This document shows, piece after piece, positions 18,568-22,440 of a stretch of 64,000 nucleotides of DNA; the first letter of the stretch is position 1, and each line of letters begins with the position of its first letter. The notes beneath the pieces are model-generated. The model was given only the letters and a program-made list of their open reading frames with translations, searched no databases and was not told the DNA's origin. A program made the position numbers and the translations under genes. Source of the DNA: Weeksella virosa DSM 16922 (GTDB taxonomy: Bacteria; Bacteroidota; Bacteroidia; Flavobacteriales; Weeksellaceae); assembly GCF_000189415.1 (NCBI RefSeq), contig NC_015144.1:1412001-1476000 (forward strand), written 5' to 3'.

Positions 18568-18598
18568 AAATCCACTTCGATCGAAGTGGATTTTTTTA
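18568..18598 (+). terminator. Intrinsic terminator of the YbaB gene
   Basis: A perfect 13-base inverted repeat AAATCCACTTCGA / TCGAAGTGGATTT is followed by seven T. It runs up to the stop codon of the convergent minus-strand gene ending at 18596. Confidence 0.9.
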
Positions 18599-18967
18599 TT
18601 GTATAACATGTTCGAAGAATAATTTACCGCTCGTATATTTTTTAGGTTCAATTTTTAATATTGCATCATATGTGCCGTAATAATCAATGTTTTTAAATAT
18701 TGTGTCAACTTTTCCATTAATAATTTCTGGATATCCGAACAAATGAATCTTTATAGTATCACTAATTTCACCTTTAATTTTTACATAATGGGTTGTATAA
18801 TTATCTTTTTTATTGGGTCTTAAAGTATCAAATTTCAATTTCGAAAAATCGGTAACCTCAAATTTATGCACTATTCGCTGTCCAAAAAGTTCATGATACC
18901 AATATCCAACAAAAACAAGTAACATTACGAACAGAACTGAAAAGTTAATAAGGATTGGTTTTTTCAT
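18596..18967 (-). CDS. Small single-membrane-segment protein, candidate immunity protein
   Basis: The 123 residues have one N-terminal membrane segment (about 6-23, ILINFSVLFVMLLVFVGYWY) and a soluble part of about 100 residues predicted outside the cytoplasm, rich in beta-type strands (THYVKIKGEISDTIKIHLFG). I do not recognise a family. It is the third gene of a minus-strand set after the Tae4-like lipoprotein and the WG-repeat-like protein, ends at a convergent terminator and, like the two before it, is very AT-rich. A role as an extracytoplasmic immunity protein is inferred only from position and topology. Confidence 0.6.
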   Translation of the reverse strand: MKKPILINFSVLFVMLLVFVGYWYHELFGQRIVHKFEVTDFSKLKFDTLRPNKKDNYTTHYVKIKGEISDTIKIHLFGYPEIINGKVDTIFKNIDYYGTYDAILKIEPKKYTSGKLFFEHVIQ

Positions 18968-19026: not shown

Positions 19027-19611
19027 TTACAGATTTATGTCTTTCCAATTAATTTCTTTTTGTATTTGGTCAAAAGTATAGTTGCTTATTTTAATAATTT
19101 TTCCATTTTTATCAATATATCCATATTGATTACATTTAATACTTGATTCAGAACATTTTTTGCCTACAATAGCATAACCATTATTGAAACTTGTGGCAAA
19201 ATCAAATTTTGGTTTTATAATAATTTTACCACATTCATTTGCAAAACCTATTTTATTATTTTTACCAACAATTCTGATTCTATCTTCAATTAAATAATCT
19301 GGCCAAGGTTCATTAGGAATAGTATTATATACTTCAAATAGAATATTTTCATTGAAATCTATAGCACTCCAGCCTTTTTTTCCTTTTATTGAAAAAATAG
19401 CAAAATATGCATTTTCATGAAATGTAAGACTAACTATATATTTATTAGGATTTAGTTTTTTGGTTATTCCATTTTCTGCTATTAACATATAGTTTTCCGA
19501 GACAATATTATCTGTACGTACCAAAGTAAACTTTTCTAATTTACATTGAGCATTTCCTTTTGTAAAAGGGAAGAAAAATAAAATAAGGTAAAGAAATATT
19601 ATCTTTTTCAT
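19027..19611 (-). CDS. Secreted WG-repeat-like protein, candidate immunity protein
   Basis: The start at 19611 gives MKKIIFLYLILFFFPFTKGN and a signal peptide ending NAQ; the frame is open 21 nt further (19632) but that would overlap the upstream gene. The mature part of about 170 residues contains degenerate WG-type beta repeats: KKGWSAIDFNENILFE, NKIGFANECGKIIIKPKFD and QYGYIDKNGKIIK. Several WG-like proteins occur next to toxin genes in Bacteroidota. Its start lies 5 nt after the stop of the Tae4-like lipoprotein gene, so both are probably translated from one mRNA. The predicted periplasmic or surface location suits an immunity protein against a cell-wall amidase; this role is inference. 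Confidence 0.7.
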   Translation of the reverse strand: MKKIIFLYLILFFFPFTKGNAQCKLEKFTLVRTDNIVSENYMLIAENGITKKLNPNKYIVSLTFHENAYFAIFSIKGKKGWSAIDFNENILFEVYNTIPNEPWPDYLIEDRIRIVGKNNKIGFANECGKIIIKPKFDFATSFNNGYAIVGKKCSESSIKCNQYGYIDKNGKIIKISNYTFDQIQKEINWKDINL

Positions 19612-19616
19612 AGTAA

Positions 19617-21212
19617 TTAATTTAACACCCAAATTCTTATTGATTTAACACCTCCATTAGGAGTAGTGTAAGCACCTCCAATACATTTACCATTTATAAT
19701 TGTATCAACATGACCAGAATAATGAATTTGAGAAGGATATTTATCATTTATAATTACGTAAATACCATTTTTATTTTTTAGTAAATCGGCCACTTTTTTA
19801 GGGTCATTTGCATCGGCTCCTTCTAGTTTATGAGGAGTGTCTCCGAACTTTTGAATCATAAATTTATTAAAAGAAACAGCATCTAATATATAATTTTTTC
19901 CGTCTCCTCCTTTTTGAGTTCTTTGTGTGCCATTATAACGAAGTACAGGAATGTCAAAACCTGAATATAATAAACCTCTAGAGCCTCTAATAGCACAAGC
20001 ATTATTGTATGCATCTCTCTGGTTTAAATGACTATCCCAAAGAGAGCCTCCTGCTAGTTTATAAGCCTCAGAAGTAGGTAATTCTGTATAATTTGGAGAA
20101 CTACCTTTTTTAGGAAAATTATTTAAAAAAGTATTAAAACTAGGTAATGAGGATTGTTGAACAGGCGTATCAAAAGTGATAAGATTAGGATCCACTACAG
20201 GATGATTTTCAGTTTCTATTTGCTTTTTAAAAAACCAATTTTCTAAATAATCCCAACTAATATTAGGATTTTGATTAAAGAAATCAGAGCCTAAAGCAAA
20301 TAAAACATCCAAATCTTGCGGGTTTTGATTAAAATAATTTTTTGCTTGATAATTAACATTTAAATAATCAATTGCCCATTTGATAAAATCTTTGGATTGA
20401 TTAGAATAACCATTAGCACTTAATAATTGAAGAAATTTATTAGAAATATTAGGATTTTCTATAAGCCAATTAATTTCTATAGTAGAGAGGTTTATGTATT
20501 GTGCTAAAACATTAGCGCTGGAATAATTAGAGTTGTTTCCTTGACCATCTAATGGATCTGTAGGGATCCCTTCGTTCATGCCTCCTCTCGGGTCTTCACC
20601 AGAAGGACCACCAGTGCTGACTCCTCCACAAGGTACTAAGGCATATGCTGGTTTTTTTGTTGCTACACATTCGTGCCATTCTTCTTGATTAGATGCTGTA
20701 TGCATACCTTCACTACATTCGAATATTGCAATACATAAACTTTCAGAATGTTTCACATTTATATTATTCTCAGATATTTGTTTTACTTTTACTTGTAAAC
20801 CTTCATTGTTAGTAGATTGATTAAAGTTCGGAGGGTATTCAACTAAAAAAAACTTATTATTGTTAGGTGTACTTTGTATAATAATGTTTCGAAAGCCGTT
20901 AGTCAAACTGTCTTCATTAACTTTGAATGTATAGGTGACCTGATAATCAGTGGTGATAGATACAATCTCAGTAGTGTCTATATTTATAGTGTTATTAGAT
21001 TTTTTAAAAAATATATTGTCAAATTCTTTGGAGAGTTTGGTCTCTTTATTTATTTCTAAAAAAGTTTTATAGGAAATAATTTCTTTCTTTTTAATTGGGT
21101 TTTTACTGTGTGAGTGATTTTCAGATTCCTCAATAATATCATCTAAATCGTTTTCACATGAATAGTGTACAAATAAAATAGATAATACTAACAATAGGAT
21201 AATTTTCTTCAT
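19617..21212 (-). CDS. Lipoprotein with C-terminal Tae4-like amidase domain (candidate antibacterial toxin)
   Basis: A 531-residue protein. The signal peptide ends in a lipobox-like VHYSC with the lipid cysteine at 19, followed by ENDLDD, an acidic stretch of the kind that directs Bacteroidota lipoproteins to the cell surface. A beta-rich N-domain (about 40-155), a short Cys/His segment (about 165-205) and a Gly/Pro linker (about 205-230) precede a helical region and then a C-terminal domain (about 365-531). The last resembles Tae4 peptidoglycan amidases: the NNACAIRGS block holds the probable catalytic Cys406, and SGHVDTI holds probable His501 and Asp503. The layout matches polymorphic-toxin lipoproteins of Flavobacteriia. 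No T6SS genes or T9SS C-terminal domain are seen here. Confidence 0.75.
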   Translation of the reverse strand: MKKIILLLVLSILFVHYSCENDLDDIIEESENHSHSKNPIKKKEIISYKTFLEINKETKLSKEFDNIFFKKSNNTINIDTTEIVSITTDYQVTYTFKVNEDSLTNGFRNIIIQSTPNNNKFFLVEYPPNFNQSTNNEGLQVKVKQISENNINVKHSESLCIAIFECSEGMHTASNQEEWHECVATKKPAYALVPCGGVSTGGPSGEDPRGGMNEGIPTDPLDGQGNNSNYSSANVLAQYINLSTIEINWLIENPNISNKFLQLLSANGYSNQSKDFIKWAIDYLNVNYQAKNYFNQNPQDLDVLFALGSDFFNQNPNISWDYLENWFFKKQIETENHPVVDPNLITFDTPVQQSSLPSFNTFLNNFPKKGSSPNYTELPTSEAYKLAGGSLWDSHLNQRDAYNNACAIRGSRGLLYSGFDIPVLRYNGTQRTQKGGDGKNYILDAVSFNKFMIQKFGDTPHKLEGADANDPKKVADLLKNKNGIYVIINDKYPSQIHYSGHVDTIINGKCIGGAYTTPNGGVKSIRIWVLN

Positions 21213-21327
21213 AGGTTAAGTTTTTATTAGGTTTTCCTCAAACCTAAATAAAAATATTCTATTAAAAAAAATAAGTTTTAATCTAAGGCTTTAAAGAATA
21301 GATTTCAATATTTTCAAGTGGATTTTT

Positions 21328-22440
21328 TTAATCCTTAATGTCCATTACGTCACGTAAAACATTCCCGAAAATATTGAAGCCTAAAACCAAAAACATAATG
21401 GCTAAACCTGGTAGAATCGCTAAATGTTGTTTGCCAAGAATTATGTGGCTATAATGTTCTTTGATGATATTACCCCAAGATGGCGTTGGCGGTTGTGCGC
21501 CAATACCCAAGAAGCTCAAGCCACTTTCGACCAAAATAGCCGATGCAAAATTAGCGGCCGAAATCACAATAACGGGAGCAATGACATTGGGGAGAATCTG
21601 ATGAAAAATAATTCGGTAATCTGAAAAACCTAGAGCACGAGCAGCTTCTACAAACTCTTTTTCTCTAAAAGATATAAACTGTCCACGCACAACACGGGCA
21701 ACTTCTACCCACATGGTCAATCCTACCGCAATAAAAATTTGCCAAAAACCTTTCCCAATTGCTAAAGTAATTGCGATGACCAATAAAAGCGTTGGAATCG
21801 ACCAAACGACATTGATGAGCCACATGATGAGGTTGTCTAACCAACCACGATAATAACCTGCAAGTGCGCCTAAACTTATCCCGACAACTAAGGAAATGAA
21901 AACAGCAACAAAGCCAATTAGAAAAGAAATTCTTGTACCAATTACCAAACGCGAAAAGAAGTCTCGTCCGTAACTATCGGTACCCAGAAAATAAGTTTTC
22001 TGGAAAATATATTTTTTTTCTATTTCGTTTATCGGTATGTGGTGATGTGTCCAAATGTCGAGTGGAATTTCTACTTTTTCGCCTTGTAAACCCTCGCCAA
22101 GAAAAGGAATATACGTAACTTTTTGCTTGTCGATCGAATAACTCACAATGCTAATTTGTTCCGAATCGATTTCTTTCCCGAAAAACAAATCGTGAATAGA
22201 GTAGGATTTCGTATAGTTTTCGAGCGGAATTTCGAGGGTCAATTGTTGGTATCCCATCGGTGCGTAGGCAATAGTAAGATCCTGACGATTGGCATTTTTA
22301 GTTTTGTCTGTTGCAATAAAATAAGCGAAAACAGTAACCAAAGCAGCTACTGCTATAACAGCAAAAGAAAGAATCCCGAGAGGATTCTTTCTTAGTTTTC
22401 TGATTGTTGTCGCTGTAAAAGAACCTTGATTGTTCTCCAT
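21328..22440 (-). CDS. ABC transporter permease, DppC/OppC type
   Basis: A 370-residue inner-membrane permease of the peptide/nickel importer class. One membrane segment near the N-terminus (about 22-45) is followed by a periplasmic insert of about 120 residues and then five segments. The EAA loop that contacts the ATPase is seen as EAARALGFSDYRIIFHQILP. No partner DppB, ATPase or binding protein is next to it, which is common in Flavobacteriia where these genes are dispersed. The start is 3 nt after the stop of prc, so the two are co-transcribed. Confidence 0.9.
   Translation of the reverse strand: MENNQGSFTATTIRKLRKNPLGILSFAVIAVAALVTVFAYFIATDKTKNANRQDLTIAYAPMGYQQLTLEIPLENYTKSYSIHDLFFGKEIDSEQISIVSYSIDKQKVTYIPFLGEGLQGEKVEIPLDIWTHHHIPINEIEKKYIFQKTYFLGTDSYGRDFFSRLVIGTRISFLIGFVAVFISLVVGISLGALAGYYRGWLDNLIMWLINVVWSIPTLLLVIAITLAIGKGFWQIFIAVGLTMWVEVARVVRGQFISFREKEFVEAARALGFSDYRIIFHQILPNVIAPVIVISAANFASAILVESGLSFLGIGAQPPTPSWGNIIKEHYSHIILGKQHLAILPGLAIMFLVLGFNIFGNVLRDVMDIKD

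Follow-up and report, generated by a model that had tools for sequence, protein, structure and literature searches.

Genes and features at the locus

The gene at the centre of this analysis lies within the window, i.e. the whole stretch of 64,000 nucleotides that was analysed, and is predicted to encode a lipoprotein with a C-terminal Tae4 amidase, here called P0001. The initial annotation placed an open reading frame at 19617-21212, omitting its strand; the frame is present and runs on the minus strand, the plus-strand translation of this interval having 35 stops. Two shorter genes follow on the same strand, and copies of a direct repeat bound the block. The features, with the basis of each assignment in brackets, are as follows.

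19617-21212, minus strand: predicted lipoprotein with C-terminal Tae4 amidase, P0001, 531 residues (open reading frame, Pfam)
21156-21212, minus strand: predicted type II signal peptide (residues 1-18, ending VHYS) and lipid-bearing Cys19 (read from the sequence)
21123-21155, minus strand: acidic stretch ENDLDDIIEES after Cys19, candidate lipoprotein export signal (resembles SusD starts of the same genome)
20631-21089, minus strand: chassis N-domain, residues 42-194 (AlphaFold2 model, weak PDB matches, cysteine columns)
20523-20630, minus strand: Gly/Pro-rich linker, about residues 195-230 (sequence, low AlphaFold2 model confidence)
20217-20522, minus strand: helical pre-toxin module, residues 231-332, in which NPNISWDYLENWF lies close to the end (similarity to locus L022)
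19620-20150, minus strand: Tae4 amidase tip, residues 355-531 (Pfam, fold match, tip alignment)
19995-19997, minus strand: codon of predicted catalytic Cys406 (alignment, Tae4 triad comparison)
19710-19712, minus strand: codon of predicted catalytic His501 (alignment, Tae4 triad comparison)
19704-19706, minus strand: codon of Asp503, third residue of a Serratia/Agrobacterium-type Tae4 triad (alignment, Tae4 triad comparison)
19027-19611, minus strand: candidate cognate immunity gene, 194 residues, signal peptide and WG repeats (PF14903, 1.9e-9)
18596-18967, minus strand: candidate orphan immunity gene, P0003, 123 residues, N-terminal membrane segment (phmmer homology)
21316-21330, minus strand: 15-bp direct repeat TAAAAAAATCCACTT, one copy, bounding the block (read from the sequence)
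18584-18598, minus strand: the other copy of the same 15-bp direct repeat, overlapping a terminator-like hairpin (read from the sequence)

The N-terminal signal with Cys19, the acidic residues after it and the modular middle with a Gly/Pro linker, as described initially, can all be read in the 531-residue product. Cys19 is invariant in 7/7 chassis proteins and fills its column in 90% or more of the sequences in chassis alignment A4. When modelled alone with AlphaFold2 (pLDDT 76.7, pTM 0.71), the chassis N-domain comprises a strand and two helices followed by strands; its comparison with PDB structures returned nothing convincing, the best match being weak (Z 5.6). Towards and after the end of the N-domain, Cys160, 166, 182 and 195 (20625-20735, minus strand) are nearly invariant among chassis proteins, which suggests a disulfide or metal knot common to the chassis.

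The genome of origin is a single contig of 2.27 Mb, in which the genome searches, including that with the chassis profile, found P0001 as the one match. NCBIfam gave no meaningful match for any of the three window proteins or for the chassis C-termini considered below, and a PHROGs search gave no match. The sequence TAGGTTTG occurs at 21239-21246 (minus strand), 26 bp upstream of the P0001 ATG, and fits the Bacteroidota promoter element TAnnTTTG.

The Tae4 amidase tip

The assignment of a Tae4-like C-terminal domain in the initial annotation is borne out by profile and fold comparisons. Pfam Tae4 (PF14113) matches residues 402-528 of P0001 over all 125 profile positions, with an E-value of 1.6e-25 and a score of 90 bits (cut-off 27), which is far beyond chance. 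The Foldseek comparison with Tae4 structures that had been proposed as a check matched the AlphaFold2 model of P0001 to Tae4 chains (best 2.6e-7), and VIA-align superposed modelled residues 355-531 on the Tae4 crystal structure 4hfk with Z 17.4 (155 aligned residues, rmsd 2.4), the top non-Tae4 chain reaching only Z 4.8. At the sequence level, phmmer with the whole of P0001 gave only weak matches to PDB sequences, the best of them (0.22) being a Tae4, and a profile of the Tae4 tip matched seven Tae4 sequences, the best at 2.4e-13.

Cys406, His501 and Asp503, the arrangement proposed initially, are invariant in six of six full-length Tae4 lipoproteins and in all 12 aligned tips. Two triad types are described for the Tae4 family in the available text of PMC6277958, one of which has Asp at His+2, as in Agrobacterium tumefaciens (Cys47/His131/Asp133) and Serratia (Cys50/His133/Asp135). 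The P0001 pattern is of this type, as in SmTae4 and AtTae4; the triad residues thus appear to have been picked correctly, given their invariance and their agreement with the Asp-at-His+2 type. On sequence and model evidence the tip of P0001 is a Tae4-type peptidoglycan amidase, the activity being predicted.

Tae4 domains were also encountered in other settings. In a Chryseobacterium-genus genome (L038:2064-12314, plus strand) a 3416-residue protein, RHS-like by eye, ends in a Tae4 domain, and the amidase therefore also occurs on another chassis. Short Tae4 proteins at L026:6459-7220 and L036:6866-7450 have a common start, MNINNFxPILLEQRRGIVATSG, with a looser form in L028; this start is perhaps a marker of T6SS cargo.

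The chassis family and its exchanged tips

A profile of the N-terminal part of the chassis (A1, built from seven sequences) matches 101 of 320 genomes of the family, distributed over 14 of 33 genera, and 16 of 395 genomes in a phylum-wide draw, all of these but two weak matches falling in the same order; neither congener has a match. As judged from these profile matches, the cassette family spans the Chryseobacterium family and, more sparsely, other parts of its order. Eighty loci were hand-picked among the chassis-profile matches listed, taking long open frames without in-frame stops and with up to six candidates scored per genome, and 19 further loci were added from other searches, giving 99 loci in which the share of Tae4 is therefore inflated. 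These yielded 95 chassis open reading frames, or 88 once seven of under 390 residues had been left out before clustering.

The last 170 residues of the 88 sampled chassis proteins (at least 390 residues each) form 14 clusters. Among 89 C-termini, P0001 included, Pfam identifies Tae4 in 10, AHH in five, Tox-MPTase3 in four and DUF6973 in one, with weak matches to SprT-like, C39-like, DUF4329 and JAB (Prok-JAB in 2/89); the majority have no strong Pfam name. Matches to AIG1, Porin_10, RXT2_N and p55_CTD were taken as chance. Cluster 4 is called AHH because five members match that domain, one member having been checked singly. The commonest C-termini, in clusters 0, 3 and 12 (43/88), share an HxH...S..D motif and are called JAB-like, a judgement made by eye from the HxH, S and D with weak Pfam support. 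Most of these proteins align with the chassis profile no further than about position 275, before the pre-toxin module is reached; the three clusters may be distantly related to each other, and not all of their members may be toxins.

Exchange of tips is apparent from 160 mosaic pairs, which have more than 55% identity over the first 230 residues, different C-terminal clusters and at most 35% identity over the last 140 residues, e.g. 94% N-terminal versus 17% C-terminal identity in one pair; 133 are left once 27 pairs within the JAB-like clusters are removed. P0001 itself reads as a mosaic: its N-domain scores highest with that of metallopeptidase-tipped L091; its pre-toxin module and that of L022 are 78% identical over 46 aligned residues, the Tae4 tips of the two being only 34% identical; and the tips of L024 and L128 share 63% identity with its own. 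Orphan tips are present as 16 open reading frames in 14 of the 99 loci, though some are short fragments or run up to a contig or locus end; in L027, from another family of the order, an intergenic Tae4 tip precedes a gene for a protein with a signal peptide.

The search for chassis N-terminal parts joined to other C-terminal domains, also proposed at the outset, was thus positive, with its 14 clusters and 160 mosaic pairs. The initial annotation regarded the amidase head as having been moved onto a lipoprotein chassis; the presence of Tae4 on a lipoprotein stands, but P0001 is better seen as a member of a widespread polymorphic family than as a one-off transplant.

Partner genes and candidate immunity

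In 82 of the 88 cases a same-strand gene starts between -40 and +60 bp from the chassis stop; half of the six exceptions come from cluster 7 (3/88), in which 3/3 members have no partner within 60 bp. All five partners of AHH tips (cluster 4) are without a signal or membrane segment, and one or the other is present in 75 of 77 non-AHH partners, compared with 175 of 327 control open reading frames, the classes being set by a crude hydrophobicity criterion in which signal peptides and membrane segments are not told apart, and the controls possibly including further immunity genes. Pfam left nine of 10 partner genes unnamed, weak matches being taken as chance; the single AHH partner scanned is Imm11 (2.3e-13), a family paired with Tox-AHH in the available text of Zhang et al. 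2012 (PMC3482391). The predicted compartment of the partner matches that of the tip.

The initial annotation missed the two partner genes downstream of P0001. The ATG of the WG-repeat gene lies 5 bp past the P0001 stop. The arrangement recurs in another genus (L022), where the gene 6 bp after that of a Tae4 lipoprotein encodes a WG-repeat protein (PF14903, 5.5e-8) that has a signal peptide, the two WG proteins matching one another in phmmer at 1.2e-5. It is likely, from gene order and sequence, that the WG-repeat protein beside the toxin is its immunity protein. WG repeats are, however, a general motif, which counts against a specific Tae4 immunity role: two of the eight Tae4-lipoprotein partners scanned with Pfam are WG proteins and six are not, and in L096 a WG protein is encoded by the second gene after a non-Tae4 chassis protein. 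In the WG-repeat protein beside P0001, Pfam at E up to 1 shows WG repeats only, and no Tai4.

The second gene, P0003, is probably an orphan immunity gene, because in L055 its homologue (phmmer 9e-20) lies 8 bp past the gene of a chassis protein with a DUF6973 tip; relatives also occur in L161. In the latter locus, from a Flavobacterium metagenome-assembled genome (L161:4856-5685), two tandem P0003 relatives lie about 2 kb after a P0001 relative and look like a small immunity array. Neither P0003 nor any of its three relatives has a Pfam name.

The constant N-terminal part, the variable tip, the downstream partner and the orphan tips are together those of a polymorphic toxin system, as which the family may be classed. 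The best reading of P0001 is as a lipoprotein polymorphic toxin bearing a peptidoglycan amidase, with a SitA-like logic, its action on cells being predicted.

Genomic site

The block is flanked by two genes, presumably for an ABC-transporter permease and for YbaB, which in the window are separated by about 2.8 kb with three genes. These two flanks are 87 bp apart in the nearest congener, where the block is absent; in the other (G001, L171:209-4884) about 4.7 kb lie between the same flanks, with other open reading frames and a gene that is transposase-like by eye and presumably encodes a transposase. The toxin block appears to be accessory, and the site may be an insertion hotspot.

This bears on whether P0001 could instead be a self-directed cell-wall enzyme, i.e. 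an outer-membrane lipoprotein that faces the periplasm and takes part in peptidoglycan remodelling or recycling, with the WG partner in a regulatory role. Lipoprotein peptidoglycan hydrolases are common, and the surface exposure of P0001 is a prediction. A housekeeping role of this type is nevertheless quite improbable, in that the congeners have no chassis match, the nearest of them has no block at the site, the same chassis bears an AHH nuclease (with Imm11 in the one case scanned) and other tips, and orphan tips exist.

Secretion context

Tae4 is classic T6SS cargo, and P0001 might accordingly be the effector of a T6SS encoded elsewhere, with its N-terminal part as a T6SS adaptor. In favour of this, short Tae4 genes without a chassis also occur in the order, and TssC is commoner in chassis-positive (78/101) than in chassis-negative genomes (126/219), mostly through one large genus; given this bias, the chassis may be linked with T6SS in general. 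By contrast, the TssK and VipB profiles found nothing in the genome of origin, their control match being in E. coli only. A family-wide TssC search was used because the absence of TssK and VipB is weak evidence alone and a first TssC search had given no match anywhere; it was positive in 204 of the 320 family genomes and negative in the genome of origin and both congeners. Among in-family sampled genomes with an intact Tae4 lipoprotein, five of eight have no TssC match, or five of 10 when the split Tae4 lipoprotein genes of G236 and G161 (both TssC-positive, and excluded from the eight) are counted. A Sec/lipoprotein signal is moreover incompatible with cytoplasmic loading, and P0001 could therefore hardly be cytoplasmic T6SS cargo. 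The effector alternative is thus highly improbable, and the placing of the toxin outside a T6SS in the initial annotation agrees with the three blank profiles.

The initial annotation also saw no T9SS signal on P0001. The genome has 37 matches to T9SS C-terminal domains, and Pfam finds no such domain in P0001. The start of the mature protein would fit the surface-lipoprotein route. In the available text of PMC5080379 the Bacteroidota LES is described as a residue that is polar or positive, with acidic ones behind it, near the Cys. Four SusD-like lipoproteins of the same genome start CSDDYLD, CSDDRLD, CQDELD and CSSDDL, and among 91 located chassis proteins 82 have D or E at +4 and 80 have R at +2. 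Mature P0001 starts CENDLDD, with E at +2, and conforms to an LES-like pattern, as assessed by the pattern and not by a trained predictor.

Proposed mechanism

The locus is probably a toxin-immunity cassette of a lipoprotein polymorphic toxin system, with delivery at the surface by contact, or in vesicles, and attack by the Tae4 tip on a neighbour's wall. This explanation draws on the chassis, the tip and its triad, the polymorphism, the tightly spaced partners, the match of compartments, the empty site in a congener and the lack of a detectable T6SS, all of them read from sequence.

The precursor would be exported by Sec and lipidated at Cys19, after which the lipoprotein would probably move to the outer membrane. 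The acidic residues that follow the Cys make it probable that it is then flipped to the cell surface along the route taken by Bacteroidota surface lipoproteins. The simplest next step is that it reaches a neighbour's envelope on contact or in shed vesicles. The chassis, comprising the N-domain and the helical pre-toxin module, would bring the tip into the neighbour, where the Tae4 domain would cleave peptidoglycan peptides in the periplasm, presumably with toxic effect. The signal-peptide-bearing WG-repeat protein would neutralise it, so protecting the producer and its kin, and P0003 may be a retained immunity protein against a DUF6973-tipped cousin.

A broader proposal, the chances of which appear about evenly balanced, is that Bacteroidota have an uncharacterised system, independent of T6SS and T9SS, in which one chassis on the surface or on vesicles would deliver Tae4 and peptidase tips to the periplasm of neighbours and AHH tips to their cytoplasm. 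With tips for both compartments, the chassis must, on this proposal, serve as an entry device or recruit one. The same need for entry, together with the long low-confidence linker, might favour a diffusible colicin-like bacteriocin, in which cleavage at the Gly/Pro linker would free the toxin, as opposed to its acting on contact while lipid-anchored. That possibility is unlikely: the neighbouring open reading frames, inspected by eye, include no lysis gene or processing protease, and the lipobox Cys is conserved across the family.

Should the proposed lipoprotein toxin system be confirmed, a chassis matched in roughly one in three of the family genomes sampled, with tips for different compartments, would represent a Bacteroidota weapon independent of T6SS, surface lipoprotein export would serve for more than feeding, and toxin and immunity families not yet studied would come into view. 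It would also become testable by what means a lipid-anchored protein gets through the outer membrane of a neighbour; in the open-licence literature, as far as its available text extends, the demonstrated transfer route for lipoprotein polymorphic toxins is that of Myxococcus.

Comparison with known systems

The P0001 tip resembles the Tae4/Tai4 pairs of T6SS in its predicted fold and Cys-His-Asp triad. It differs from them in being borne on a lipoprotein chassis, in a genome without a detectable T6SS, and in having a WG-repeat partner instead of Tai4.

Some elements of the family are familiar from the toxins of Zhang et al. 2012 (PMC3482391), including a relative with an AHH tip and Imm11, and the Tox-MPTase3 tips. 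Tox-JAB-1 with the lipoprotein Imm65, from the same source, resembles the JAB-like clusters and their partners in outline, although Tox-JAB-1 sits there with RHS repeats, unlike the lipoprotein chassis here. Its available text also describes the APD1 and APD2 lipobox prodomains in Amoebophilus, on effectors directed against the host; in that text the chassis is not among the toxins and Tae4 has no occurrence. RHS tips have been described in Ornithobacterium (available text of PMC13183296). Searches of the open-licence PMC literature yielded no description of the chassis toxin system.

A further resemblance, made by description of the chassis, is to the toxins of the lipocone paper (PMC12419801), the available text of which reports a lipobox, an N-terminal cystatin-like domain and swapped tips, including ColM-like, START-like, papain-like acyltransferase and VanY-like domains, with a BamE-like protein as the most widespread partner. 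The chassis shares with these a lipobox, a helix-and-strand N-domain and exchanged tips, and a DUF6973 tip occurs in one relative. The two chassis may be identical, which would mean that the outline of the system is already in print and which is compatible with the lipoprotein toxin-immunity explanation: the order of elements in the N-domain (helix then strands) is loosely similar, but no PDB match of the N-domain exceeds Z 5.6. Monellins, stefins and cystatins do appear among its weak matches, at Z 3.4-4.0, but no higher than unrelated rows. Moreover, the tips listed in the available text of PMC12419801 do not include Tae4, AHH, JAB or MPTase, its partners are mostly BamE-like where those here are diverse, and neither Chryseobacterium nor Flavobacterium is named in its main text. 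Identity is thus doubtful, while retaining a real chance of being correct.

SitA of Myxococcus, as described in the available text of PMC5562445 and PMC8546572, is an outer-membrane lipoprotein with a conserved escort, a swapped C-terminal toxin and an adjacent immunity gene; it depends on TraAB outer-membrane exchange, and its tips are nucleases. Its escort and toxin parts were exchangeable in three of four chimeras (PMC8546572), and its authors report no significant homologues beyond the Myxococcales (PMC5562445). Like SitA, the chassis family has a lipoprotein N-terminal part, a swapped tip and an adjoining candidate immunity gene, here recognised from sequence alone. Unlike SitA, it is found in Bacteroidota hosts and its tips include predicted wall and protein hydrolases.
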